From positions 1-64,000 of the IMG/VR virus record IMGVR_UViG_3300025508_000008: 64,000 nucleotides of DNA. One strand, 5' to 3'. The position numbers were made by a program, and so were the translations under genes. The DNA comes from a virus. Shown piece by piece: positions 30,532 to 61,336 of the stretch (position 1 is its first letter; each line of letters opens with the position of its first letter). The notes beneath the pieces are model-generated. The model saw nothing but the letters and a program-made list of their open reading frames with translations, ran no database searches and was not told the DNA's origin.

Positions 30532-30560
30532 AAAAAAAAGACCCTTTCGAGCCTCTCTTC
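30532..30560 (-). terminator. Rho-independent terminator with GAAA loop
   Basis: The minus strand forms an 8-bp hairpin (AGAGGCTC, loop GAAA, GGGTCTTT) followed by a run of eight T. It ends the large RNA region and fixes its strand as minus. Confidence 0.8.
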
Positions 30561-31347
30561 CTAATTAAAATAAAAAAAAATGTTTAACCTTAATGGTTTA
30601 GCACCCTCTTTCTTATTAGCTCCTAGCTCCATTGGTCTCTGCATCGTTACCACAGATTTAAACATTGGTGGCAGACTTGTACTATGGTTTACTAATAAGA
30701 GTAGGGTCACGTAGTAAGGGATAGGCGACCTTAAAATATCTTTTTAACTACTTGTTGAGAACTCATATGTGTTGTACTAAACGCATTATATATTAGTATG
30801 TTATGGTACATTCCTTTCTCAAGGGAACAACACATCCAGTATCACGACTGGTATCTTTATGTAAATTAACTTCTGTTTCGTTTTCAGCCGTTATAAATTA
30901 TGAAATACTAATAGCTGTAAAATGTTACTATTGTTCACATTCTACCTTAGTACCAAGTAATCCTTTTTTATTTAATTCACAAAGGTTTCAATGTTTAACC
31001 TTTACTTTCTATTTTATTACGAGTGAACTAGCACACTCTTTCTATCATATTACTAGTTGTTAATTTTTAGAATAGTATAATGTTCTGTTAGGATATAATT
31101 TGAACTATTATTGTGTCTTTATACTATCCTATGTATTTTAAAAAACTCTTTGCCCAATTCAGCTATGGGATATGTTTCAGTAGTACTAGCAACTTAATCT
31201 TTCCTACCCTACTTTATACATCTCCAATAAACACAACTGCTGATACAGTTTAATAACAAAGACTGGTGTGCTTAATGAGAGCCAGTAGAGGAGTGGATAC
31301 TTCTGTGCAATTGGGCTACATGTTATTGTTTATCTTCAATCAAAGAG
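30561..31347 (-). ncRNA. Large structured non-coding RNA, about 0.8 kb
   Basis: This block has no convincing ORF but many long pairings. CTCTTT plus GCCCAATT at 31146-31159 pair with AATTGGGC (31309-31316) and AAAGAG (31342-31347). A 12-bp stem joins 31069-31080 to 31119-31130 with one G-U. Smaller hairpins include CCAGT/ACTGG near 30840, GAGTG/CACTC near 31030, AACTG/CAGTT near 31240 and AAAGGTT/AACCTTT near 30985. A terminator follows. Size and phage context recall GOLLD and ROOL RNAs, but I cannot show membership. Confidence 0.75.
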
Positions 31348-31356
31348 TTTAATTAT

Positions 31357-31578
31357 TTAACCTAAGTCTTCAACCTCCTTAGGCATAAATTCAGTATTTA
31401 CGTGCCCGCAACTCATGCAGGCGAATACTGGAATTGGGATATAGGACGGTTTGCCCGTACCTGTCAGTATGCCCGAAGCTTTTCGAATATGTACTGCTTG
31501 TTGGAAGAAGTTCCCCCCGCATTCATCGCAGGTTACTCCTTTTGTTTGATTGATATCTAAGTTCATTTGTGGATCCAT
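31357..31578 (-). CDS. Zinc-binding hypothetical protein
   Basis: Seventy-three residues from ATG 31578 (upstream in-frame codon is TTG). CDECGGNFFQQAVHIRKASG and CMSCGHVNTEFMP form a zinc ribbon with a conserved loop (GTGKPSYIPIPVF). I have the impression of relatives in other large tailed phages. Function is unknown. Confidence 0.65.
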   Translation of the reverse strand: MDPQMNLDINQTKGVTCDECGGNFFQQAVHIRKASGILTGTGKPSYIPIPVFACMSCGHVNTEFMPKEVEDLG

Positions 31579-31595
31579 ATTATGTGTCTTTTTTG

Positions 31596-31802
31596 TTAAT
31601 CGCAAGTTTTTCTTACTTTCATTTCATCTACAGCCATTGTATACACAACTCTAGGAGATAGTAGTGGGCAGTCTCTTGAATACTGTACCATAAGCTCTAC
31701 AAGCTCTTGAGGAATTTCATAAACCCTGCTAGGTGTGAAGCTTGTATTTGATATTCTACCCTCGGCCACGAGTTCTTCGTATTTTTTTATTGAGTCACTC
31801 AT
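31596..31802 (-). CDS. Small hypothetical protein
   Basis: Sixty-eight residues from ATG 31802, overlapping the upstream stop (TAATG). Start MSDSIKKYEELVAEGRIS. Helical and soluble; unknown function. Confidence 0.55.
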   Translation of the reverse strand: MSDSIKKYEELVAEGRISNTSFTPSRVYEIPQELVELMVQYSRDCPLLSPRVVYTMAVDEMKVRKTCD

Positions 31803-32246: not shown

Positions 32247-32561
32247 TTACTTGCTCTCTGCTACAGACTCTTTTCTGTAGTCTGTTACAAGTTTCTTAAT
32301 GTTTCCAATATGCTTACGGGCATTAGCTTGTGACTTTTTAGTTTGTCCTTCATGTCCTAATACAAACGCTTCAAATTCAGCGGTAATCTGTTCAAATAAT
32401 CTTTGTTTTTCACTCATCGGTTCTTGATTTTTTTCTTCTTTTGTTATTTTTGGGTATGCAAATTCGGTCATAATTAACGTACTACCCCTATACGTCCATT
32501 TATCTATTAGACCGTATTCATTCTTGTATTCTACTACTCTTTTTTTTCCTGCAATCTTCAT
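32247..32561 (-). CDS. Hypothetical protein next to groEL
   Basis: One hundred four residues: a beta-rich start ([20 protein letters not shown]), then a charged helical C-terminus. Its start touches the groEL stop, so it belongs to the chaperonin operon. Function is unknown. Confidence 0.6.
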   Translation of the reverse strand: MKIAGKKRVVEYKNEYGLIDKWTYRGSTLIMTEFAYPKITKEEKNQEPMSEKQRLFEQITAEFEAFVLGHEGQTKKSQANARKHIGNIKKLVTDYRKESVAESK

Positions 32562-34189
32562 TACATTCCAAACATACTAGGGTCTACTCCTCCCTGGGCT
32601 GCTTTCTTACCTGTACTGTGTACTACTGCCTCAGTTATTAACATTGTCCCTGCTACTGATGCTGCATTCTCTAATGCTAGTCTTGTAACTTTAGTCGGGT
32701 CTATAATACCCTCTAAGAACATGTTTACGCTCATCTGTGTTCTCGGGTTATATCCTGCCCATGCGTCTTGTTGACTCATCACTGCATATTCGATATCTCC
32801 TATCTTATCTTTTGAGTACCCTGCGTTTATTAGTATCTGAGCAAATGGTTTTTCTATCGCTTTGATTGTAATGTCAAATCCGAGTTTCTCATCTCCAGAA
32901 ATACTTTCATCAGAGATTAACTGTGCTAATACCTTAGAAGCGTTTAGTAGGGCTATTCCACCACCAGGTAGTATACCTTCTTCTAAAGCTGCTTTAGTTG
33001 CATGTAGTGCATCGTCTACTCTATCTTTCTTCTCTTTCATCTCCACTTCAGTGTGTCCGCCTACGTATACAATTGCTACGCCCCCTATAAACGAAGCTAA
33101 CCTCTCTTGAAGTTTTTCGATTTCGTAAGTAGATTTGCTTTCATCAATTTGTGACTTAATCTCTTCTACTCTCCTACTGATTGCTTCCTCTTCTCCTTGT
33201 GCATCTATAATTGTAGTATGCTCTTTACCTACAGTCACTTTCTTAGCTTTTCCTAACCACTTAGCGTCGAACTTATCTAACCTCATCCCTCTTTCCGAAG
33301 AGACTACTGTTGCTCCTGTTAGTGTTGCTATATCCTCTAAGACAGCTTTCTTTCTATCTCCAAACTCAGGTGCTTTAACTGCTGCTACTTGAAGAATGTT
33401 CCTCATCTTATTAACCACTAACGTAGATAATGCTTCGGCATCTATGTCATCTGCAATAATGAGCAGTGATTTATTCTGTTGTGAAGCTGCTTCTAGTAGA
33501 GGCAGTAACTCTTTTACTGTACTTAGTCTCTTATCTGTAATAAGTATTTGAGGATCCTTTAGTACTGATAGCATTGAGGTGTTATCTGTAACAAAGTACG
33601 GTGACTTGTATCCTCTATTAAACTGTATACCTTCTACAGTCTCTAAGTATGTGTCTCCTGTTCTTGATTCCTCGATTGTTACAACTCCGTCTCTACCTAC
33701 CTTATCCATTGCTGCTGAGATAAGTTCTCCTACTTCCGTATCGTTGTTAGCTGAGATTGTAGCAACTTGTTTTAGTTGATCTTCTTCGGTAATTTCTTTA
33801 GAAGTGTCTTCTAAGTAGTTTACCACTAGGTGCACTGCTCTATCAATACCTCTTCTCACGTCTACAACATTAGATCCTTTCTTAATAGAACTCAATCCCT
33901 GTTTGTATAACTCTCTCGCTATCAAAGTAGAGGTTGTTGTACCGTCTCCTGCTTGATCTCCTGTTTTAATAGAAGCCTGCTTTACTAGCTGTGCTCCTAT
34001 ATCTTCAACTTTACCTTTCAGGTCTATCGACTTTGCTACAGTAACACCGTCTTTAGTTGACCCTTGGCCTTCAATAATAACATTTCTTCCCGAAGGTCCT
34101 AAAGTCGCTACTACTGCATCTGCTAATTGATCAACTCCGCTAAGTAGTTGCTTTCTTGCTTTGTCTGAAAAAACTATTCTTTTACTCAT
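32561..34189 (-). CDS. groEL: Chaperonin GroEL
   Basis: Five hundred forty-two residues, normal for GroEL. It contains [27 protein letters not shown], the nucleotide-binding [14 protein letters not shown] and [24 protein letters not shown] and [11 protein letters not shown]. The C-terminus ends [10 protein letters not shown] without the long Gly-Met tail of cellular GroEL. It folds proteins in the cytoplasm with the GroES-like cochaperonin encoded just upstream. Confidence 0.95.
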
Positions 34190-52717: not shown

Positions 52718-52745
52718 AGAGGACCCGAAAGTCCTCTTTTTTTTT
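52718..52745 (+). terminator. Plus-strand rho-independent terminator
   Basis: AGAGGAC pairs with GTCCTCT around CCGAAA, followed by nine T on the plus strand. It could end a plus-strand transcript of the structured region, or act as the 3' end of the Ro60 message on the other strand. Confidence 0.65.
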
Positions 52746-54288
52746 AAATTTCTATAGCTTCAATTGCTTTGATTACAGCTCTTGGATCTATTTCAACTCT
52801 TTTTACTAGCTCATACATTTCTGATGAGTATCCAGCTAACTGGTAAAGTTTTTGAGTTGTTGGCTTAAACATTGTAGTTGAATATCCACAGATGTTTATT
52901 GAATATACGTGCATCTTGTTATAGTTGCTTGGTGAAATGTACGAAGCTCCTTGCATATCCGAGATAATAAAGATTCTGTCGTACTTATTCCCAATCGTAC
53001 TAAAAATACCATTAAACTCAGTTCCATACCCTACAGTTCCCTGTAATTTTCTAAACTGATTTTTAATAGTATTTATACTATCTAAAGGATTGAACTTAAT
53101 TGCAGCGACACTACTAGCGAAGTGGTATACATCGGCGTTAATCCCTTTACCTAAAGTTGCAGCTACTAAAGCAGCTTTTTCAATAGCAGATTTACTACCA
53201 GGTTTCCCATTTGCTAATCTGATCGATGATCCCATTGATCCTGAACTATCAAAGATAACTGCAGTTTTACCTGCTGGAAATAGTGATGTTAGGTTCGGAA
53301 TCGCAAGTTCGTAAGCTTTATCTAGTGCTGTAATGAATGGTAACGCTTTTGACGCTCCTATATCCTGTAGTAACACTTCTAATGCTAAATCGATTTGGTG
53401 AGGGAATACTAGAGATTTTCTAATAGTTGCTTCATCTGTTAAGATAGCAATTGCTCCGTCAATCAATTCTTTATTTGAACTAGTTTGTAAGATATTACGT
53501 AAGTTACGTAGTAACGCTAAATACCCTATTTTTTTAGTTGCAATTAATTCAGCATAATTTGATTCCTTAGCTTGTGTTAACTCTACCTTAGCTTCCGCTT
53601 TAGTAATAGTACCTTCTTTTACTTTCTTAGCAACATCTTGTCCAGCTGATGTATTCTTATCTTCAACAGTGTTGAATTGCTTTAACTCTCCAGTCATTAA
53701 CTGTTTGAAAGTTTTTTGCATATCTTCACTTGGTTTTGGACGAACTAAGTTTACAATATCAACTAAGGAAACATCTTTATTCTTTCCTTGGTATTTTGCT
53801 AACTCGTAAGTATCAGCAGCCTCTAAAGCAGCTTTAAATCCTTTCTTCATTGCGTTTGGCAATGGTTTTCCGGGATTGAAGTGTTGATAACAAGCTACTA
53901 TTTCTAGTAAGTCATCTAACCTAAACACGATACCTCCTGTTTTAAATTTCTTACTTCTCTTTGAGAAGAATTTACGTGCAATTCCTCTACCTGATAGGTA
54001 AGGTGCTAATGCTACTGCTCCAAACTGGGTAACACTTCTTTGGCCCATTACAGATCTAGCATATACTAGTGCTTTAGCTACGAATTCAGGTTCTTTTTGA
54101 GCTAACTTTACGATAAGCTCTTTGAATCTAACTTCTCTGTCTGATAATTTCTCGTAATAAGTATTATCAAAACCTGTTGCTAAAATAGCAACTAATTCAT
54201 GTTTTGGATCTAATTTGTAACCTTCACCTCCTTGGTGGTTTGTTACTGTAGGTGTTGCAGTCTTTTTGTTTTTGTTGTAAACTGACAT
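52744..54288 (-). CDS. Ro60/TROVE protein with vWA domain (Rsr-like)
   Basis: Five hundred fourteen residues, the length of Ro60 orthologues. Residues 1-330 form the TROVE HEAT-repeat ring (HELVAILATGFDNTYYEKLS, FRLDDLLEIVACYQHFNPGK, YLALLRNLRNILQT). Residues 340-510 form a von Willebrand A domain with an intact MIDAS site: DSSGSM near 347, Thr of GYGTEF near 421 and SDMQ near 442. Ro60 binds misfolded and Y RNAs and guides RNA trimming. It lies right after the tRNA array, separated by a terminator, with a structured RNA on the other side. Confidence 0.88.
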   Translation of the reverse strand: MSVYNKNKKTATPTVTNHQGGEGYKLDPKHELVAILATGFDNTYYEKLSDREVRFKELIVKLAQKEPEFVAKALVYARSVMGQRSVTQFGAVALAPYLSGRGIARKFFSKRSKKFKTGGIVFRLDDLLEIVACYQHFNPGKPLPNAMKKGFKAALEAADTYELAKYQGKNKDVSLVDIVNLVRPKPSEDMQKTFKQLMTGELKQFNTVEDKNTSAGQDVAKKVKEGTITKAEAKVELTQAKESNYAELIATKKIGYLALLRNLRNILQTSSNKELIDGAIAILTDEATIRKSLVFPHQIDLALEVLLQDIGASKALPFITALDKAYELAIPNLTSLFPAGKTAVIFDSSGSMGSSIRLANGKPGSKSAIEKAALVAATLGKGINADVYHFASSVAAIKFNPLDSINTIKNQFRKLQGTVGYGTEFNGIFSTIGNKYDRIFIISDMQGASYISPSNYNKMHVYSINICGYSTTMFKPTTQKLYQLAGYSSEMYELVKRVEIDPRAVIKAIEAIEI

Positions 54289-54836: not shown

Positions 54837-54968
54837 TTTATTTTTTTGTATTTCAATGAACTTTATAGATATTTCTATCTTATAGTATAGAGATAAGTTT
54901 TTTAGTCTTATCTAGCAACTCTATTCTACTTTAATTTGAAAAAAGATTTTCTATTGGATAATATACTG

Positions 54969-55040
54969 TGTCCCCAGCAGGATTTGAACCTGCGACCAAT
55001 TCGTTATGAGCGAACCACTCTACCGCTGAGTTATAAGGAC
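54969..55040 (-). tRNA. tRNA-Met (CAU)
   Basis: Full cloverleaf: acceptor GTCCTTA, D arm with AGCGGTA loop, anticodon loop CTCATAA, T arm GCAGG/TTCAAAT/CCTGC. CCA is not encoded. Could be elongator Met or Ile (k2CAU). Confidence 0.85.
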
Positions 55041-55048
55041 ATTATTAA

Positions 55049-55138
55049 AGAGAGTTTCGGGTCTTTCAAGGTTACTTCCCTATAGCGAGGCTAACCTTTA
55101 CCTATATCGCCAGCTGTTATGAAGCTTCACTACTCTCC
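55049..55138 (-). ncRNA. Hairpin RNA between tRNAs, R1
   Basis: About 90 bases closed by GGAGAGT/ACTCTCT (7 pairs), with AAGGTTA/TAACCTT inside. tRNA-sized but without T-arm sequence; could be a decayed tRNA or small RNA. Confidence 0.4.
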
Positions 55139-55159
55139 TTAATGGTTTTTAAAATTAGA

Positions 55160-55229
55160 AGCGGTCGTGGGACTCGAACCCAACCGTAGGGTTATGAGCC
55201 CTGCATGCTACCAGTTACAACACCCCGCG
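55160..55229 (-). tRNA. tRNA-Met (CAU), initiator-like, imperfect
   Basis: Begins CGCGGGGTG like initiator tRNA, anticodon loop CTCATAA on a GGG/CCC stem, T loop TTCGAGT. The lower acceptor stem and one T-stem pair are mismatched, so function is uncertain. Confidence 0.65.
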
Positions 55230-55255
55230 ATGTTACTTTCTATTAAACTAATTAG

Positions 55256-55328
55256 CGGTCCACATGGGGGTCGAACCCACAATCTTCGCCGTGACAGGGC
55301 GACATGTTACCAACAACACTTCTGAACC
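55256..55328 (-). tRNA. tRNA-Asp (GUC)
   Basis: Anticodon TCGCC/CTGTCAC/GGCGA, D loop TGTTGGTA, T arm GTGGG/TTCGACC/CCCAT. Acceptor has one G-G mismatch. Confidence 0.8.
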
Positions 55329-55471
55329 GGTTACCTTTACATTCCAAAGGTTAAGCAGGTTTCGTTAATGGACTTTCCTTCCTTGTTTAGACTATCTGTT
55401 TTTACGCCTATATTTCAAAACTGGACTTGTTATCTAATATTCACTTAAGTAGTCATCTTAAGTTAGTTTTG

Positions 55472-55544
55472 TGGAGCCAATGGGATTCGAACCCACATCC
55501 TTTTCGTTGCAAACGAAATGCTCAGCCAGTTGAGCTATGACCCC
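55472..55544 (-). tRNA. tRNA-Ala (UGC)
   Basis: Anticodon TTTCG/TTTGCAA/CGAAA, T arm GTGGG/TTCGAAT/CCCAT, acceptor GGGGTCA with TGGCTCC including a G-U pair. Confidence 0.88.
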
Positions 55545-55549
55545 TAGTA

Positions 55550-55624
55550 AAAGTAGTTAATATGACGTTTGCTCAAGTTATGGTTGACTGCTCAGCCGTA
55601 CTTTAACGGTTCTTTAACTACTTT
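55550..55624 (-). ncRNA. Hairpin RNA between tRNAs, R2
   Basis: Seventy-five bases closed by a perfect 11-bp stem (AAAGTAGTTAA/TTAACTACTTT). No tRNA arms recognised. Confidence 0.45.
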
Positions 55625-55626
55625 AG

Positions 55627-55698
55627 TACTGCCGAAGGGTTTCGATCCCTCTTTTACACCGTGAAAGGGTGGTGTCCTAGCCAGTAGACGACGGCAGC
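55627..55698 (-). tRNA. tRNA-Glu (UUC)
   Basis: Anticodon loop CTTTCAC, T arm GAGGG/ATCGAAA/CCCTT, acceptor GCTGCCG/CGGCAGT. Confidence 0.85.
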
Positions 55699-55702
55699 AT
55701 TT

Positions 55703-55802
55703 AAATAGTAGGTAAGCTCCACATTTTCACTTACCTAACTTAGCGACCTCTATGGTTGTGAATCCATTTTAAAGGGGTTCCTCGGTTCTAAGTTTACTAT
55801 TT
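55703..55802 (-). ncRNA. Hairpin RNA between tRNAs, R3
   Basis: One hundred bases: outer AAATAGTA/TACTATTT, inner AACTTAG/CTAAGTT and AGGTAAG/CTTACCT, plus ATGG/CCAT. A multi-branched fold filling the whole gap. Confidence 0.5.
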
Positions 55803-55804
55803 AG

Positions 55805-55877
55805 AGCGGATGATGGGATTCGAACCCACAACATTTAGCTTGGAAGGCTAAGACTCTACCAGTTGAGCTACATCCGC
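55805..55877 (-). tRNA. tRNA-Gly (UCC)
   Basis: Anticodon TTAGC/CTTCCAA/GCTAA, T arm GTGGG/TTCGAAT/CCCAT, acceptor GCGGATG/CATCCGC (one mismatch-free stem). Confidence 0.9.
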
Positions 55878-55882
55878 ACTTT

Positions 55883-56128
55883 CTATTTCCTGTATGCTGC
55901 TTTTATATCTTCAACACTAAACCAATCATATTCTTTCAAATCAGAAAGAAACCAGTGACATTTATAATCAAAGATATTATAACTTGGAAATACTTTTCTG
56001 TAAGAATTACCGTCAGCGATTTTGTGAGGGTATCTTCTTACTGCTTTACTTGCCATCCTTTTAGCGTGTGGAGTATAGTTTCTGCTATAATCTGATACGA
56101 CAGGATGTTTCTTTTTACTTCTGCTCAT
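55883..56128 (-). CDS. Hypothetical basic protein within the tRNA array
   Basis: Eighty-one residues, start MSRSKKKHPVVSDYSRNYTP, basic N-terminus and acidic C-terminus. It lies between tRNA-Thr and tRNA-Gly in the same orientation. Relatives with this start are common in phages; function unknown. Confidence 0.65.
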   Translation of the reverse strand: MSRSKKKHPVVSDYSRNYTPHAKRMASKAVRRYPHKIADGNSYRKVFPSYNIFDYKCHWFLSDLKEYDWFSVEDIKAAYRK

Positions 56129-56200
56129 TGTTTTCTAGTTTAACGATTAACGTAACTAGAATACAGAGTTTTTAAATTTAGTCATAGTGTTTACTTTTTG

Positions 56201-56273
56201 AGCCTCTAACCGGGATCGAACCGATGACAATCACGTTACAAATGTGATGCTCTACCAACTGAGCTATAGAGGC
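56201..56273 (-). tRNA. tRNA-Thr (UGU)
   Basis: Acceptor GCCTCTA/TAGAGGC, D arm GCTC/AGTTGGTA/GAGC, anticodon loop TTTGTAA, T arm ATCGG/TTCGATC/CCGGT. Confidence 0.88.
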
Positions 56274-56329
56274 AATTAAATTAGAATAGCGCTTGAATGC
56301 CTTTTAAGTTCTCCATCAACCTCTAACTT

Positions 56330-56405
56330 TTATTAAAAATAACTTGTGTTATTCAACAATATTAATTTCAACTGTTTCTAGCTACACAATAGTTATTTTC
56401 TTTTG
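56330..56405 (-). ncRNA. Hairpin region between tRNA-Leu and tRNA-Thr
   Basis: AAAATAAC plus TTGTG pair with CACAA plus GTTATTTT around about 35 bases, followed by TTTTTAATAA. It may be a terminator or small RNA. Confidence 0.45.
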
Positions 56406-56480
56406 TACCTGAGAAGGGATTCGAACCCTCATGACCTAGAACCTAAATCTAGTGCGTAATGCCATTTCCGCCACTCAGGC
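56406..56480 (-). tRNA. tRNA-Leu (UAG)
   Basis: Anticodon CTAGA/TTTAGGT/TCTAG, acceptor GCCTGAG/CTCAGGT, T arm GAGGG/TTCGAAT/CCCTT. Variable arm is short for Leu. Confidence 0.82.
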
Positions 56481-56487
56481 ATCTCTT

Positions 56488-56510
56488 ATTATCCAATATG
56501 TCAATGATCT
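56488..56510 (-). repeat. 23-bp tRNA-upstream repeat, copy 1
   Basis: Contains ATTGACATATTGGATAAT on the minus strand, identical to 61595-61617. Both lie just upstream of a tRNA run. Confidence 0.7.
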
Positions 56511-56524
56511 CACTACTATTATAC

Positions 56525-56558
56525 CATAAATATACGAAGTTCTACTTTACCTACAAAC
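56525..56558 (-). promoter_or_regulatory. Phage promoter upstream of tRNA-Leu
   Basis: GTTTG and TATATTTAT at the standard spacing on the minus strand, reading into the repeat and tRNA-Leu. Confidence 0.7.
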
Positions 56559-56563
56559 TTTTT

Positions 56564-56737
56564 CTACTTATTTCTAATTATTTCTTCAATAATAGTGTAC
56601 CTGCTAGGGTAACTTGCAATAACATCTGTTTGGGACAAAAAAGTTATTCTTCCTTTATTTACTATATATGAATCTGCTATTATTTCTTTATAGAACTTAG
56701 CTGATGGCATATTAATATATAATTTATACTTACTCAT
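56564..56737 (-). CDS. Small hypothetical protein in the tRNA array
   Basis: Fifty-seven residues, start MSKYKLYINMPSAKFYKE, ending EEIIRNK. Plausible amino-acid use and position between tRNA-Cys and the next promoter support it. Unknown. Confidence 0.55.
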   Translation of the reverse strand: MSKYKLYINMPSAKFYKEIIADSYIVNKGRITFLSQTDVIASYPSRYTIIEEIIRNK

Positions 56738-56752
56738 ACTATTTTAATTTAG

Positions 56753-56824
56753 AGGGACATATCGGGATCGAACCGATGTAAATAGTTTTGCAGACTATCA
56801 CCTAAGCCATTCGGCCAATGTCCC
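56753..56824 (-). tRNA. tRNA-Cys (GCA)
   Basis: Anticodon ATAGT/CTGCAAA/ACTAT, T arm ATCGG/TTCGATC/CCGAT, acceptor GGGACAT/ATGTCCC. Confidence 0.88.
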
Positions 56825-56906
56825 TTAGGTTCTTCTTCTACTATTTTTTCTGTTGTTGCGTTCATTGTAACTGATTTTTAAATTAATCTTTTAACTGTTA
56901 TTGAGA

Positions 56907-56940
56907 CCTAAATATAATGATTAGATCTCAATTAACCAAC
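56907..56940 (-). promoter_or_regulatory. Phage promoter, GTTG-N20-TATATTTAG
   Basis: A full match on the minus strand overlapping the end of the HNH gene; it reads towards tRNA-Cys. Confidence 0.8.
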
Positions 56941-56948
56941 TTTCTTGT

Positions 56949-57500
56949 TTAGAAAAGTAAATAAGGTTTCCACTCTTCCGGAATGTATGTTGTCTTCTTT
57001 AGTAACATTAAATAGTGTGGACGTTGTGGTTTTGGTATATTTTTTGTATACTCTTCTACCATTAGATCCGCTTTTTCCCCATTACATTTCTTACAAGCTG
57101 TTACTAGATTATCCCATGCGTTTGGTCCTCCTTTTGATTGAGGAATAACGTGATCTAACGTAAGTAACTTTTTTGTAGTCTGTCCACAATATACACACTC
57201 GAAATTATCTCTTTTATAGATATTCTCTCTTGTTAGTGGTACCTTTTGAAAGTTAAGTTTCACATAAGTGAATACTCTAATAATTGATGGTTTATTAATC
57301 TCTAAATTTGGATTAACAACACCGAATGTCTCTGGGTATTCTGCTATAATGTCTGCATTACCTTTAAAAGAGATTACGAAAGCTCTTTCAGTAGTGATAA
57401 TGCTTCTAGGAATATAGCTAGAATCGACTACCAGAGTTTTACTGTAGCGATTTTTCATAATTTCTACTTTTTGGGTTAATGAAACATTTTCTTTTTCCAT
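56949..57500 (-). CDS. HNH endonuclease
   Basis: One hundred eighty-three residues. The C-terminal HNH domain shows RDNFECVYCGQ, TLDHVIPQSKGGPNAWDNLV and TACKKCNGEKADL, with all Cys, His and Asn residues. The N-terminal half has RAFVISFKGNADI, as in Cas9-unrelated RRXRR-type phage HNH proteins. Free-standing HNH genes inside tRNA arrays are often homing enzymes. Its ATG abuts a promoter. Confidence 0.82.
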   Translation of the reverse strand: MEKENVSLTQKVEIMKNRYSKTLVVDSSYIPRSIITTERAFVISFKGNADIIAEYPETFGVVNPNLEINKPSIIRVFTYVKLNFQKVPLTRENIYKRDNFECVYCGQTTKKLLTLDHVIPQSKGGPNAWDNLVTACKKCNGEKADLMVEEYTKNIPKPQRPHYLMLLKKTTYIPEEWKPYLLF

Positions 57501-57502
57501 AT

Positions 57503-57536
57503 GCTAAAGATCGCATATAATTATAACTCTACCAAC
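57503..57536 (-). promoter_or_regulatory. Phage promoter, GTTG with GATCTTTAG
   Basis: GTTG and a variant -7 box at exact spacing on the minus strand, three bases from the HNH start codon (leaderless-type). Confidence 0.6.
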
Positions 57537-57556
57537 TAAATTAGTAGTTTTCTTTG

Positions 57557-57629
57557 CACGCCTGGAAGGAATCGAACCTTCAACCTTTAGTTTTGGAGAC
57601 TACTGCTCTACCGATTGAGCTACAGACGT
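57557..57629 (-). tRNA. tRNA-Trp (CCA)
   Basis: Anticodon loop CTCCAAA, D arm GCTC/AATCGGTA/GAGC, T arm GAAGG/TTCGATT/CCTTC, acceptor ACGTCTG/CAGGCGT with G-U pairs. Confidence 0.88.
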
Positions 57630-57634
57630 ATTTA

Positions 57635-57757
57635 CTATGCCACTAATCTACTCTTAGTCTTCCACTTAACTCTGTAAGCGGTTTTGAAGGCTTTACTACG
57701 TCTTGTATTGGCGTAGCCGATCCTTAGCGATTCTTGGTTTCCCATTAAATTACTCAT
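57635..57757 (-). CDS. Small basic protein
   Basis: Forty residues, start MSNLMGNQESLRIGYANTRR, very basic C-terminal half (SKAFKTAYRVKWKTKSR). Possibly nucleic-acid binding; just upstream of tRNA-Trp. Confidence 0.5.
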   Translation of the reverse strand: MSNLMGNQESLRIGYANTRRSKAFKTAYRVKWKTKSRLVA

Positions 57758-57787
57758 TGATTTATTATTTAAAAATTTATATTTGAA

Positions 57788-58477
57788 TTAGTAGGCTATT
57801 TTTGCCCAACGTGTCTTTCCGCTCCAGATACTGTCTTTCAGTAGTATGAACGGTTGACCCTTAAGTACTACATCCCCTTTTCTTTGTGATTCTTTTGATT
57901 TTCCTATAACTCCCACTCTTATACTACGAGCAGTTTTCGCTTTCCACAGTATAGTGCTTCCTTCTACAGGCTCTATCAGCAATTCTCCTGTTGATTCCTG
58001 TATCTGTACATACCCTTTTTTGGTTAGTAGCTCTTTAATCTTATTTAAAACCTCTCCATCTTTATCTCCTCTCAATTTAATATAATCGGTGTAAGCTTCC
58101 ACAGTATTTTGGTCTTGTGCATAATCCCATAACTGGTATGTGTTTTTTTCTATCTCTAAGTGTACCTGTCTTAAGGAATCATAAGAGATTTTAATAATCT
58201 CTAATTTTACCTTCTCTCCTTGTAGATTTTCTTCTGAGATTTTTAAATCTTCCACTAAAAGTTCTGCTACATCTTTAAGTTTATTTGTTCTTAGCAGTAG
58301 TTCATTTTTTGCATCTCTTTCTCTTACTACCTCGTGTTTTGTCTCAACTGCATAGAATGCAGTAAGGAAGGAAACTATAACTAGTAACACTACTACGCCC
58401 CAAAGTACATTATTAATTGCCCTACTTTTTCGGGCATTCTTATTTGTTACTGCTATTAACTCCTTAATATTACTCAT
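57788..58477 (-). CDS. Membrane-anchored coiled-coil/SH3-like protein
   Basis: Two hundred twenty-nine residues: one transmembrane helix at 24-44 (LWGVVVLLVIVSFLTAFYAV), a coiled coil to about 120, then a C-terminal SH3-like domain (STILWKAKTARSIRVGV, WSGKTRWAKIAY). Fourteen bases separate it from the upstream membrane gene, suggesting a pair. Function is unknown. Confidence 0.6.
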   Translation of the reverse strand: MSNIKELIAVTNKNARKSRAINNVLWGVVVLLVIVSFLTAFYAVETKHEVVRERDAKNELLLRTNKLKDVAELLVEDLKISEENLQGEKVKLEIIKISYDSLRQVHLEIEKNTYQLWDYAQDQNTVEAYTDYIKLRGDKDGEVLNKIKELLTKKGYVQIQESTGELLIEPVEGSTILWKAKTARSIRVGVIGKSKESQRKGDVVLKGQPFILLKDSIWSGKTRWAKIAY

Positions 58478-58490
58478 AATTATAAACTAT

Positions 58491-58901
58491 TTATGTGCTG
58501 ATATATAATGCTAAATCACTCTCTACTGCTGTTATATCTTGTTCTGAATTAGGAAGTATCCCGTTTTCAATCCTGTTTACAGTTTTATCGAAGATTCGTA
58601 AGCCGTTTAGTTTCTGCTTTTGTACTTTTACTACGTTAAAGGACTTTGAAGCAAATGCTACCGGAAGTACCTCCCCTACAAACCCTGTTACTGTTCCCAT
58701 ATGTTCCCATAGCCCCTGTAATTTTGTAAGGAGTTCTGGCTTAAGTACGAAGAGAAGTCCAACAGCTACTGCAAGTACTATACCAACTATTATATAGGTA
58801 CGGGCTAATTTAATACGTGATTCTAAATCCTCTTTATAGAACTCGATATCATCTTTTAAATCTTCTATTAGTATTTTCTGCGCTTTTGACAGTTCTTCCA
58901 T
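58491..58901 (-). CDS. Membrane protein with amphipathic N-terminus
   Basis: One hundred thirty-six residues with a helical charged start (DLKDDIEFYKEDLESRIKLA), a membrane segment at 33-52, a second near 70-85 and a soluble C-terminus. The layout resembles membrane effectors of bacterial conflict systems, but only loosely. Paired with the next gene. Confidence 0.5.
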   Translation of the reverse strand: MEELSKAQKILIEDLKDDIEFYKEDLESRIKLARTYIIVGIVLAVAVGLLFVLKPELLTKLQGLWEHMGTVTGFVGEVLPVAFASKSFNVVKVQKQKLNGLRIFDKTVNRIENGILPNSEQDITAVESDLALYIST

Positions 58902-58925
58902 AATAATAAATAGTTTGGAATATTG

Positions 58926-58998
58926 TACCCCTCCTAGGATTCGAACCTAAAGTCGCCTCTTTAGAAGAGAGGTGCTTTTCCATTTAAGCTACAGGGGC
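58926..58998 (-). tRNA. tRNA-Arg (UCU)
   Basis: Anticodon CCTCT/CTTCTAA/AGAGG, T arm TTAGG/TTCGAAT/CCTAG, acceptor GCCCCTG/GAGGGGT. Confidence 0.85.
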
Positions 58999-59002
58999 AG
59001 AT

Positions 59003-59240
59003 ACCTAGTTTTCGTACTAGGTAAACGTGAATCCGTGCTCCCTTAGAAACACCTAAATTCAACAGCTGCTAGGCTGCTAATGCAAAGTTGTCGTTTGCGT
59101 AAATACTAATCTACTATCATCCACGTTTTCCATTGTCAAAACCAGTCGGCCCCATGGTCTTAAAAGTCTCATAGTGGAGCCGGAGAGTATCGAACTCTCG
59201 TCCAACGAAATGTCAATAATTATCAACGATTTGTATTTTG
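59003..59240 (-). ncRNA. ssrA: Circularly permuted tmRNA (ssrA)
   Basis: The acceptor piece (59240-59175) comes first and ends with T arm GAGAG/TTCGATA/CTCTC and acceptor CGGCTCC plus A. After a 21-base spacer the coding piece begins at 59153 with GGGGCCG, which pairs 7/7 with that acceptor, and a D-like TTTTGACA. Its tag frame GCA to TAG (59098-59069) reads ANDNFALAA, then a hairpin (ACCTAGT/ACTAGGT) ends the piece. tmRNA rescues stalled ribosomes; permuted forms are two-piece molecules in some bacteria. Confidence 0.88.
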
Positions 59241-59314
59241 TACCTCCAGTAAGACTCGAACTTACAGGTCTTAACGTCCGTAGCGTTATGTTTTTCCAGT
59301 TAAACTATGAAGGC
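59241..59314 (-). tRNA. tRNA-Arg (ACG)
   Basis: Anticodon TAACG/CTACGGA/CGTTA, T arm GTAAG/TTCGAGT/CTTAC, acceptor GCCTTCA/TGGAGGT. Its 3' end abuts the tmRNA acceptor piece. Confidence 0.85.
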
Positions 59315-59379
59315 AGTTGTAGGATATCGCTTAACCTACTAGATGTGATCAATATCTATTTTTTTATACGATTTTTTTG

Positions 59380-59463
59380 TACCCCTGACAAGATTCGAAC
59401 TTGCAAGCCTCTAAGGCAATAGGGCTTAAACCTATCGTGTATCGCCATTTCCACCACAGGGGC
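59380..59463 (-). tRNA. tRNA-Leu (UAA)
   Basis: Class II tRNA with long variable arm; anticodon ATAGG/TTTAAGC/CCTAT, T arm GCAAG/TTCGAAT/CTTGT, acceptor GCCCCTG/CAGGGGT. Confidence 0.88.
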
Positions 59464-59521
59464 ATTTGTAATGTCAAAAACTTCCCTAACGGAGGAAAAC
59501 TTCATTACGAGCTTATTTTTG

Positions 59522-59594
59522 GGTGAAAGACGGGGCTCGAACCCGCAATCGCTTGGACCACAACCAAGTGCTTTACCATTCAGCTACAATCACC
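59522..59594 (-). tRNA. tRNA-His (GUG)
   Basis: Anticodon CTTGG/TTGTGGT/CCAAG, with the extra G at -1 facing C73, the His identity element. T arm GCGGG/TTCGAGC/CCCGT. Two acceptor mismatches. Confidence 0.87.
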
Positions 59595-59606
59595 ATGTTG
59601 CTCTCC

Positions 59607-59933
59607 TTAATACTCTTTATATATTGCTAAATTATTTTCTACTAACCAATCACTAACGTTAACTCCTTCTATATACACTTCAGCTAAGTACCTTCCGTAC
59701 TTACCTTTCTTATCTTTTCGGGTCTTAATAGTAACTTCCTTACCTAGTACTAATTCTCTTAACCTATCTCTTGAAAATTTACCTGCTTCTTTTTCTTCTC
59801 CTCTAACTTCAGGAGCATCAATTCGTAGAATTCTTAACGGTTCTGTAAATGTCATGTTAAATCCTAAATCGATTTGTGCTGTTACAGTATCACCATCGTA
59901 AACTTTAATAATTTTTGCTTTGTAAGTATACAT
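59607..59933 (-). CDS. Staphylococcal-nuclease-like thermonuclease
   Basis: One hundred eight residues, a minimal SNase domain. KIIKVYDGDTVTAQIDLGF, LRILRIDAPEVRGEE, FSRDRLRELV and GKYGRYLAEVYIEG carry the metal Asp residues and both catalytic Arg residues. No signal peptide, so it would act inside the cell on nucleic acid. Confidence 0.9.
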   Translation of the reverse strand: MYTYKAKIIKVYDGDTVTAQIDLGFNMTFTEPLRILRIDAPEVRGEEKEAGKFSRDRLRELVLGKEVTIKTRKDKKGKYGRYLAEVYIEGVNVSDWLVENNLAIYKEY

Positions 59934-59956
59934 TATATTGTTTATTATAAATATTG

Positions 59957-60028
59957 TACCGATAGAGAATTTTGAAATCTCGACCTATTCCATATGAAGG
60001 AAGTGCTCTGCCTCTGAGCTATATCGGT
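59957..60028 (-). tRNA. tRNA with CAU anticodon (Met or Ile2)
   Basis: Acceptor ACCGATA/TATCGGT, D arm GCTC/AGAGGCA/GAGC, anticodon loop TTCATAT, T loop TTCAAAA with one T-stem mismatch. Third CAU tRNA, so an Ile tRNA needing lysidine is possible. Confidence 0.8.
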
Positions 60029-60037
60029 ATTATTTTG

Positions 60038-60164
60038 TGAACCATAAGGGACTCGAACCCTATACCTCCCCTCCTTTCCTACTTATAAGATCTATTAAGT
60101 ATTCATAATCAACGGAAATCACCAAGTATGTTATTGAAGTCAAGAACCTTAATCGATACAGCTC
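60038..60164 (-). tRNA. Interrupted tRNA-like sequence
   Basis: A T arm (TAGGG/TTCGAGT/CCCTT) and acceptor ATGGTTC at 60038-60060 could pair with GAGCTGT at 60164 (seven pairs, three G-U), enclosing about 127 bases, roughly 50 too many. No anticodon arm is clear. It may be an intron-bearing or decayed tRNA. Confidence 0.35.
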
Positions 60165-60197
60165 TCAGTCTCGCAATATACAGCCCATATTTTATAG

Positions 60198-60282
60198 CGG
60201 TAGATATGGGATTCGAACCCATGTAGCTTTTACACCCTACTTGTTTAGCAAACAAGCCTCTTTACCGTTTGAGTAATCTACC
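60198..60282 (-). tRNA. tRNA-Ser (GCU)
   Basis: Class II; acceptor GGTAGAT/ATCTACC, anticodon CTTGT/TTGCTAA/ACAAG, T arm ATGGG/TTCGAAT/CCCAT. Confidence 0.88.
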
Positions 60283-60290
60283 AGTTTTTG

Positions 60291-60362
60291 TCGGCCTAGT
60301 AGGATTTGAACCTACGACTTGCTGTGTATCGGACAGCTACTCTACCGCTGAGTTATAGACCG
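60291..60362 (-). tRNA. tRNA-Ile (GAU)
   Basis: Anticodon GCTGT/CCGATAC/ACAGC with C instead of the near-universal U at 33. D arm ACTC/AGCGGTA/GAGT, T arm GTAGG/TTCAAAT/CCTAC. Confidence 0.82.
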
Positions 60363-60365
60363 TGG

Positions 60366-60486
60366 TGGGGAAGGTTGGATTTGAACCAACAATGTCAAAT
60401 TTCAAGTTTGATTGTTTACCGAAGTAACTCAATTGTATTACTACCATTTCTGAAGAAAGTCTACGCGAGTTGTTTATTTCTTCCCC
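60366..60486 (-). tRNA. Interrupted tRNA-Ser-like (UGA), 121 nt
   Basis: Acceptor GGGGAAG/CTTCCCC with encoded CCA, T arm GTTGG/TTCAAAT/CCAAC and anticodon TCAAA/CTTGAAA/TTTGA. Between acceptor and anticodon arm are about 65 bases where a D arm should be, including linker element M1. The variable loop is short, unlike normal Ser tRNA. Likely intron- or insertion-bearing. Confidence 0.55.
60419..60447 (-). repeat. tRNA-linker element M1
   Basis: ATGGTAGTAA and GAGTTACTTCGG inside the interrupted tRNA-Ser-like gene. Confidence 0.55.
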
Positions 60487-60496
60487 ATTTTTACTG

Positions 60497-60570
60497 CTCC
60501 TTAGGTAGGTCTCGAACCTACGACCTATGCATTAACAGTGCACCGCTCTAACCAACTGAGCTACTAAGGA
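60497..60570 (-). tRNA. tRNA-Asn (GUU)
   Basis: Anticodon GTGCA/CTGTTAA/TGCAT, acceptor TCCTTAG/CTAAGGA, T arm GTAGG/TTCGAGA/CCTAC. Confidence 0.88.
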
Positions 60571-60576
60571 ATATAG

Positions 60577-60649
60577 TGGCTATTACCGGGATCGAACCGG
60601 TGACACCTAGATCTTCAATCTAGTGCTCTACCTACTGAGCTAAATAGCC
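60577..60649 (-). tRNA. tRNA-Phe (GAA)
   Basis: Anticodon CTAGA/TTGAAGA/TCTAG, acceptor GGCTATT/AATAGCC, T arm ACCGG/TTCGATC/CCGGT. Confidence 0.9.
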
Positions 60650-60758
60650 TGGCTGGGGTTTAGAGATTTTGTTTAATACTCTCTCCGGGGCCACCCCCTT
60701 TAAGTACTTTTTCAACCATTTTTTCCTGTTTCCTTCTTTCGGTTAGGTCTCCGCCTCG

Positions 60759-60829
60759 TGCCGCCAGTAGGAATCGAACCTACCCAGTAGAGTTTTACAG
60801 ACTCGCTCGGCACCTTGCCTGTTGTCGGC
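60759..60829 (-). tRNA. tRNA-Tyr (GUA)
   Basis: Anticodon GAGT/CTGTAAA/ACTC, acceptor GCCGACA/TGGCGGC with one mismatch, T arm GTAGG/TTCGATT/CCTAC. D arm is short and variable arm is class I, unusual for bacterial Tyr. Confidence 0.78.
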
Positions 60830-60869
60830 TTTAAAAAAATTAAGAGAAAGTTTAGAAGAGCTGTTTTGG

Positions 60870-60942
60870 TTGCAGATACGGGATTTGAACCCGTCACCTA
60901 TTGATTTGAAGTCAATTGCTCTACCATGTGAGCTAATTTGCG
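60870..60942 (-). tRNA. tRNA with UCA anticodon (opal suppressor type)
   Basis: D arm GCTC/ACATGGTA/GAGC, anticodon ATTGA/CTTCAAA/TCAAT, T arm ACGGG/TTCAAAT/CCCGT, encoded ACCA end. The acceptor CGCAAAT/ATCTGCA has two mismatches. Linker element M2 abuts its 5' end. UCA would read UGA, yet many genes here stop at UGA. Confidence 0.65.
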
Positions 60943-60966
60943 AAGTAACTCTTTCCATTACTACTT
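60940..60966 (-). repeat. tRNA-linker element M2
   Basis: AAGTAGTAA and GAGTTACTTCGC directly at the 5' end of the UCA tRNA. Confidence 0.6.
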
Positions 60967-60973
60967 AATTTTG

Positions 60974-61048
60974 TACTTCTTATAGGATTCGAACCTATGA
61001 CCTCTTGCGTGTAAAACAAGCGCTCTAAACCAACTGAGCTAAAGAAGT
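60974..61048 (-). tRNA. tRNA-Val (UAC)
   Basis: Anticodon CTTGT/TTTACAC/GCAAG, acceptor ACTTCTT/AAGAAGT, T arm ATAGG/TTCGAAT/CCTAT. Confidence 0.88.
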
Positions 61049-61054
61049 ATTTTG

Positions 61055-61128
61055 TGCCCCCGACAGGGATCGAACCTGTGACCTTCGAGTTAAAAGCTCG
61101 CTGCTACTGCCTACTGAGCTACGAGGGC
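61055..61128 (-). tRNA. tRNA-Lys (UUU)
   Basis: Anticodon loop CTTTTAA on CGAG/CTCG, acceptor GCCCTCG/CGGGGGC, T arm ACAGG/TTCGATC/CCTGT. Confidence 0.87.
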
Positions 61129-61181
61129 AAATCCGATTCGTGTTTTTAAAGAGAACCGTATATCGGCGAAAAACTCTATTG

Positions 61182-61254
61182 TCGGGATGACAGGAGTTGA
61201 ACCTGCCGCCTCTTGCTCCCAAAGCAAGCGTCTCACCAACGAGACTACATCCCG
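61182..61254 (-). tRNA. tRNA-Pro (UGG)
   Basis: Anticodon CTTGC/TTTGGGA/GCAAG, acceptor CGGGATG/CATCCCG, T arm GCAGG/TTCAACT/CCTGT. Confidence 0.9.
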
Positions 61255-61263
61255 GAATTATTG

Positions 61264-61336
61264 TTTCCCCAGCAGGGCTCGAACCTACACTCTTTGATGC
61301 CAAAAACCAACGTGTTACCAATTACACCATGGGGAA
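61264..61336 (-). tRNA. tRNA-Gln (UUG)
   Basis: Anticodon TTGGT/TTTTGGC/ATCAA, acceptor TTCCCCA/TGGGGAA, T arm GTAGG/TTCGAGC/CCTGC. Confidence 0.87.

Follow-up and report, generated by a model that had tools for sequence, protein, structure and literature searches.

A probable two-module non-coding RNA gene in a flavobacterial phage, with covarying homologues in other phages

The locus

The window, i.e. the whole stretch of 64,000 nucleotides which was analysed (positions 1 to 64,000 of IMG/VR virus record IMGVR_UViG_3300025508_000008), contains a block of about 0.8 kb which had been described from its letters as free of genes. This description was borne out. The genes around the block are on the minus strand, and on this strand no open reading frame of at least 50 amino acids is found between the upstream gene, which encodes a Zn-ribbon protein (31605-31357), and the downstream gene for a protein of 71 amino acids (30503-30288). 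The sole frame of at least 50 amino acids inside the block, an 86 amino acid frame at 30803-31063, is on the plus strand. The Zn-ribbon gene has 63% identity to the Zn-finger gene of Flavobacterium phage immuto and yields weak zinc-ribbon matches in Pfam. The structured part of the block, read on the minus strand, extends from 31351 to 30598; its 5' module covers 31351-31141 and its 3' module about 31000-30598. The features of the locus, in the direction of the minus strand, are the following.

31357..31605, minus strand: gene of the Zn-ribbon protein, the upstream neighbour; its stop codon lies 5 nt ahead of the RNA block
31141..31351, minus strand: 5' module, found by covariance model R2; covariation in 25 sequences
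31341..31351, minus strand: 5' strand of the P1 helix, UAAACUCUUUG; partner strand at 31152-31142
31226..31248, minus strand: motif B, CUGUAUCAGCAGUUGUGUUUAUU, nearly invariant; GUUUAUU in motif B pairs with GAUAAAC at 31334-31328
31153..31169, minus strand: hairpin CCCAUAGCUGAAUUGGG with a CCCA/UGGG stem; compensated variants elsewhere
31001..31140, minus strand: linker between the modules, with a degenerate copy of motif F at 31043-31028
30598..31000, minus strand: 3' module, from motif C to motif F; match of model R1 at 30838-30598
30987..31000, minus strand: motif C, GGUUAAACAUUGAA, upstream of the R1 match
30836..30865, minus strand: UUUACAUAAAGAUAC followed by a hairpin, in the window CCAGU CGUGAU ACUGG; of the GUAA-loop type in many homologues
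30767..30835, minus strand: D helix, AUGUGUUG (30835-30828) with CAACACAU (30774-30767); encloses a GAGA-tetraloop hairpin at 30827-30811
30752..30766, minus strand: motif D2, AUGAGUUCUCAACAA (AUGAGUUCUCAGCAA as the conserved strand across homologues), near-invariant; complementary to the GAGA loop
30711..30751, minus strand: P3 arm, GUAGUUA (30751-30745) with UUACUAC (30717-30711); interior hypervariable
30598..30710, minus strand: P4, motif E (30710-30692) with motif F (30619-30598), a variable arm between them
30579..30589, minus strand: partial second copy of motif C, GGUUAAACAUU, 3' of motif F
30532..30555, minus strand: terminator-like hairpin with a GAAA loop and U8, at the 3' end of the minimum-energy fold; part of the locus

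Homologues in other phages

Comparison of the block with phage records by BLASTN yielded the Cellulophaga phages phi14:2 (Crassvirales) and phi4:1/phi17:2 (Lightbulbvirus), with 42 nt of the 5' module being 97.6% identical to phi4:1. The order of the motifs in phi14:2 and phi4:1 is that of the window, but open reading frames occupy the position of the linker and keep the 5' and 3' parts separate. Small open reading frames which had been deposited across the 3' part of phi14:2 are antisense to it and are marked as removed in the RefSeq copy. BLAST matches to Staphylococcus Kayvirus in AT-rich sequence were treated as chance, the conserved motifs being absent from those loci.

Scans of IMG/VR for exact motifs found motif F in 79 stretches, motif B in 66, and motif D2 in 112, and most of the loci with motif F also carry motifs C, D2, and E in the same order. 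The carriers amount to more than 100 contigs, some of them longer than 300 kb. Model R1 recovered 59 of 61 loci with the D2 motif which were outside the model, at about 72 bits or more. Two D2-motif matches with 29 bits in R1, L177 and L191, resemble coding sequence and were rejected. The window itself scores 151.1 bits with R1 and 138.8 bits with R2, values which are not independent because L007, a contig identical to the window, is contained in both models; the BLAST matches in phi14:2 and phi4:1 are independent of R1 and R2. Among 84,980 prokaryote species, represented by a single genome each, seven exact matches to motif F were encountered, none of them supported by R1, so that at this sensitivity the search gave no copy in cells or prophages. 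The plasmids searched contained no match.

Folding and covariation

The sequence-only reading had proposed that the block folds as one large RNA. Judged by the energy of the single sequence the fold is ordinary, with z scores against shuffled sequences of -0.80 for the minus and -1.26 for the plus strand and three of 20 shuffles equally stable on each strand. Folding energy was therefore discarded as uninformative evidence, being within chance on both strands. The block rises above chance because of its conservation and covariation in other phages, so that the proposal stands as regards a folded RNA and has to be amended to two separable modules plus a terminator of the locus. The long-range stems which had been named are present, GUGACCCUACUCUUAUUAG (30710-30692) pairing with CUAAUAAGAAAGAGGGUGC (30619-30601) and AAACUCUUUG (31350-31341) with CAAAGAGUUU (31152-31143).

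In 26 sequences of the 3' module 97.5% of the cells pair and 15 pairs show changes on both sides; none of 500 shuffles matches any of the measures, and slid versions pair at 40-54%. Alignment A5, made of 54 sequences outside the model, has 96.3% pairing cells, two-sided changes in 25 of its 32 base pairs (none of 500 shuffles as high), and, with P4 included, 136 cells changed on both sides compared to 15.8 in shuffles, figures to be read with the caveats that the shuffle control disregards relatedness, that the model served to fit A5, and that the loci were chosen by an exact 19-nt motif, which inflates the conservation of those same motifs. The D helix has two-sided changes in six of seven pairs in the 26 sequences and in all seven in A5. 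An alignment-free test, in which the pairing of a strand with its own partner was compared to that with swapped partners (n=86), gave z scores of -14.0 for P4 and -9.5 for P3.

In the 5' module both P1, which has two-sided changes in five of ten pairs, and the GAYAAAC/GUUURUU helix covary, and the stem of the hairpin at 31153-31169 is replaced in other phages by the compensated versions UUCCA/UGGA, CUUA/UAAG, and CCUA/UAGG. The first arm of this module yielded a z score of -4.2 for own versus swapped strands. Neither the second arm (z -1.1) nor the C-region arm of the 3' module (z -1.6) gave a clear signal, and these two are not claimed as proven helices. Combinations of G-U exceed those of A-C in the helices by about 3 to 1, which fits an RNA read from the minus strand. 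The search for covariation in homologous phages, suggested along with the sequence-only reading, thus strongly supports a large structured phage RNA, and it is almost certain from these comparisons that the block encodes a genuine one.

Near-fixed loops and exchangeable arms

Both modules recur across varied phage contexts, with loops that are near-fixed (GNRA-type tetraloops) and outer arms that are freely replaced. RNAs in which the GAGA hairpin has another stem mostly retain the GAGA loop. The P3 arm (GUAGUUA/UAACUAC) is absent from L013, L038, L062, L067, and L085. The arms are hypervariable, and some are nearly identical across otherwise different RNAs. One such P3 arm (AAUCAGGUGUGAGUUCAGUAAUCCUCCC...) is found almost unchanged in L054, L077, L078, and L031, in which other parts of the 3' module differ. 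Shared P3 arms look as if they had been exchanged between RNAs by recombination. Arms exchanged around a fixed core amount to a natural experiment that can tell the important parts of a large RNA from the others.

The 3' module of the window is preceded by a degenerate F-like and followed by a C-like copy, which suggests a past duplication; the order F then C occurs also in L032, L045, and L079. The UGAGAA of the GAGA hairpin is complementary to the UUCUCA of motif D2, and the two could form an internal or intermolecular contact, a pairing beyond the reach of covariation because both are nearly invariant.

Genomic context

The DNA polymerase of the window phage has 72% identity to that of immuto, and the two phages share the gene order DNA polymerase, GroES, GroEL, Zn finger, lysis genes, and holin. 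The lysis region with the GroEL gene (32561-34189 in the window) and its neighbours is syntenic with immuto, and a putative chitinase of immuto is unmatched among the window genes compared. From the Zn-finger gene of immuto to the next gene there are only 73 nt, containing a terminator with a tail nearly as in the window, TTTTTTTTGTGCTATTTATA, and R1 and R2 gave zero matches on the whole immuto record. The RNA is absent from this syntenic locus and is therefore, on comparative grounds, a discrete unit which either entered the lineage of the window, ahead of a terminator already present, or was lost from immuto. As to the terminator with a GNRA loop which had been counted with the folded block, a 12-bp hairpin with a GAAA loop and a run of U is indeed present, but it does not belong to the RNA family because immuto carries a terminator at the equivalent site without the RNA.

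The genes on either side of the 3' module vary from phage to phage, none being conserved beside the RNA. A tRNA or tmRNA lies within 1.2 kb of 17 of the 58 3'-module loci and eight of the 44 5'-module loci, compared to fractions of 0.18 and 0.13 at random positions (longer loci), an enrichment which is to be taken as suggestive because some of the carrier phages are related. For tmRNA alone the count is eight of the 58 3'-module loci, several of these tmRNAs being confirmed by Rfam. A tmRNA at a distance of up to 1.2 kb downstream of the 3' module is present in L043, L051, L059, L064, L078, L081, L004, and L031 (permuted), in six of these eight within 170 nt. Some 5' modules are located inside tRNA clusters.

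The tRNA cluster of the window is 24 kb away from the RNA block. It extends from 54968 to 61336 and contains 23 tRNA genes according to ARAGORN, or 24 tRNA matches according to Rfam, plus a permuted tmRNA (RF04321, 59069-59227, 64.3 bits). One tRNA (60867-60942), with the anticodon UCA and classified as tRNA-SeC by ARAGORN, could read UGA, either for selenocysteine or as a suppressor. Beside the cluster is a gene for a TROVE (Ro60-like) RNA-binding protein (52744-54288). A partnership in the manner of Ro60 and Y RNA was considered and rejected, as a TROVE gene occurs in only four of 43 module-carrying records, namely the window phage and three others.

Another protein family, phrog_15656, recurs beside or between modules in phi14:2, L015, L056, and L065. 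Its members lie between the modules or just downstream at 2075-2785 in L004, 9423-10097 in L056, 1011-1661 in L065, and 1162-1842 in L015. It is not judged to be a partner protein because relatives sit among packed genes in phi38:1 and Calle_1 with no obvious gap for an RNA. No neighbour common to the loci emerged as a partner protein.

Interpretation and alternative explanations

Single, duplicated, and reversed modules are found elsewhere: L026 has the reverse order, G013 has two 5' modules and one 3' module, and G031 two of each. By these arrangements the RNA is composed of two separable conserved modules and is not simply one unit. Our preferred reading, to which we assign a probability of about 80%, is that this flavobacterial phage has in the block a gene for a non-coding, trans-acting structural RNA with two modules. 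With the same degree of confidence the comparisons favour an action in trans over cis-regulation. Transcription would reach it by read-through from the genes upstream and stop at the terminator of the locus. The RNA would serve, in trans, as a stably folded scaffold, with the conserved loops making tertiary or intermolecular contacts and the variable arms pointing outward. If GOLLD and ROOL are a guide, it may function as an RNA-only assembly or as a ribonucleoprotein; self-assembly of their kind is a tentative idea.

The best surviving alternative, a serious contender somewhat short of even odds, is that two separate RNA genes are adjacent here by chance and encode distinct RNAs, which possibly cooperate as two strands. 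In its favour are the many contigs with one module and no detected partner, the reversed order in L026, the unequal copy numbers in G013, and the open reading frames between the modules in phi14:2 and phi4:1. Divergent partners may, however, escape the models or lie past the ends of the contigs, the modules adjoin on the same strand not only in the window but also in L065, L113, L132, and L144, and in the window neither a gene nor a terminator separates them.

An unlikely explanation is a cis-acting leader or processing element of the downstream gene. It draws on the many homologues in which an open reading frame on the same strand starts 10-120 nt from motif F, and a gene beginning shortly 3' of this motif in most homologous loci would suit a leader or a processed transcript. 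The downstream genes are unrelated between phages, however, a terminator-like hairpin stands between the RNA and the next gene in the window, and in several loci it is a tmRNA rather than a gene which directly follows.

Slightly less probable again is a mobile RNA element, intron-like or aided by a homing endonuclease, which spreads without benefit to the phage. Patchy presence, with the RNA gained or lost where the genes around it are syntenic, would be expected of such an element, as would tandem copies and arms common to different RNAs, and genes for HNH or homing endonucleases adjoin some copies. HNH genes are abundant in phages generally. No single mobility gene is associated with the RNA, and a group I or group II intron was rejected for want of any Rfam match and since the RNA lies intergenically, flanked by two complete genes which have the same order in immuto.

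That the RNA is a divergent member of GOLLD, ROOL, or HOLDH, all of which had been brought up in the sequence-only reading, is very improbable. Like GOLLD and ROOL it is encoded by phages, large, ornate, and at times near tRNA or tmRNA genes (PMC12286853). The Infernal/Rfam search which had been recommended left no credible Rfam 15 family for the block: none reached its gathering score, and up to E=10 there were weak unrelated matches only. In the homologues Rfam recognised just the neighbouring tRNA and tmRNA. The ROOL model RF03087 was silent in all ten carriers, the record of the window included, and did find the known member in plasmid pMP118 with 130.4 bits; R1 in turn had no match in pMP118. 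The GOLLD model RF02032, run without a positive control, was likewise silent in the ten carriers at E<=1, and the scan of the window was negative, so that membership in either family is unsupported. The absence of a Rfam 15 match bears on HOLDH only if the library holds its model.

Finally, a functional site in the DNA (an origin, or a site of packaging or recombination) or an overlooked coding region, which the intergenic, AT-rich sequence with inverted repeats and the formerly annotated small frames of phi14:2 might suggest, is hardly credible in view of the two-sided changes, the preference for G-U on one strand, the removal of those antisense frames from RefSeq, and the lack of an apparent common reading frame.

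Comparison with known large RNAs

To our knowledge just a handful of large structured phage RNAs without known function have been described, among them GOLLD and ROOL, which are RNA-only cages. GOLLD assembles as a 14-mer RNA cage and ROOL as a closed RNA nanocage. By Rfam 15 and the open-access literature the RNA described here would be a new family, of a broader kind (large phage RNAs without known function) which has precedents; searches of open-access papers brought up no description of it, and a preprint or subscription paper could already exist. Since the RNA occurs in the cultured phages phi14:2, phi4:1, and phi17:2 of Cellulophaga baltica, its transcription, deletion, and structure are directly testable. 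We tentatively envisage a new class of large phage RNA, in which two interchangeable modules join, on one strand or as separate molecules, to a folded or self-assembling particle whose contact loops are conserved and whose outer arms are hypervariable, and which phages of Bacteroidota would use alongside their own sets of tRNA and tmRNA.

Among the RNAs available for comparison, tmRNA and permuted tmRNA (RF00023, RF04321) are stable RNAs of the same phages and directly follow the 3' module in L043, L051, L064, L078, and L081; these models do not match the block RNA and found tmRNA separately in the same genomes. HOLDH had been brought up in the sequence-only reading as a further large RNA. Both GOLLD and ROOL are large RNAs of phages which lie close to tRNA islands and build cages (PMC12286853). 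ROOL resembles the block RNA as a large ornate phage RNA of unknown function and is often near tRNA islands (PMC12286853); it differs in that its model RF03087 matches neither the block RNA nor the other carriers. The likeness to GOLLD extends to a widely conserved 3' region with a 5' region which is not always there, a linker able to hold genes, and a suggestive proximity to tRNA and tmRNA genes at some loci (PMC12286853). Unlike GOLLD, the block RNA has other conserved motifs, modules which are separable and reversible, and, among the carriers found, phages of the Bacteroidota type, and on this sequence comparison it would be filed under neither GOLLD nor ROOL.
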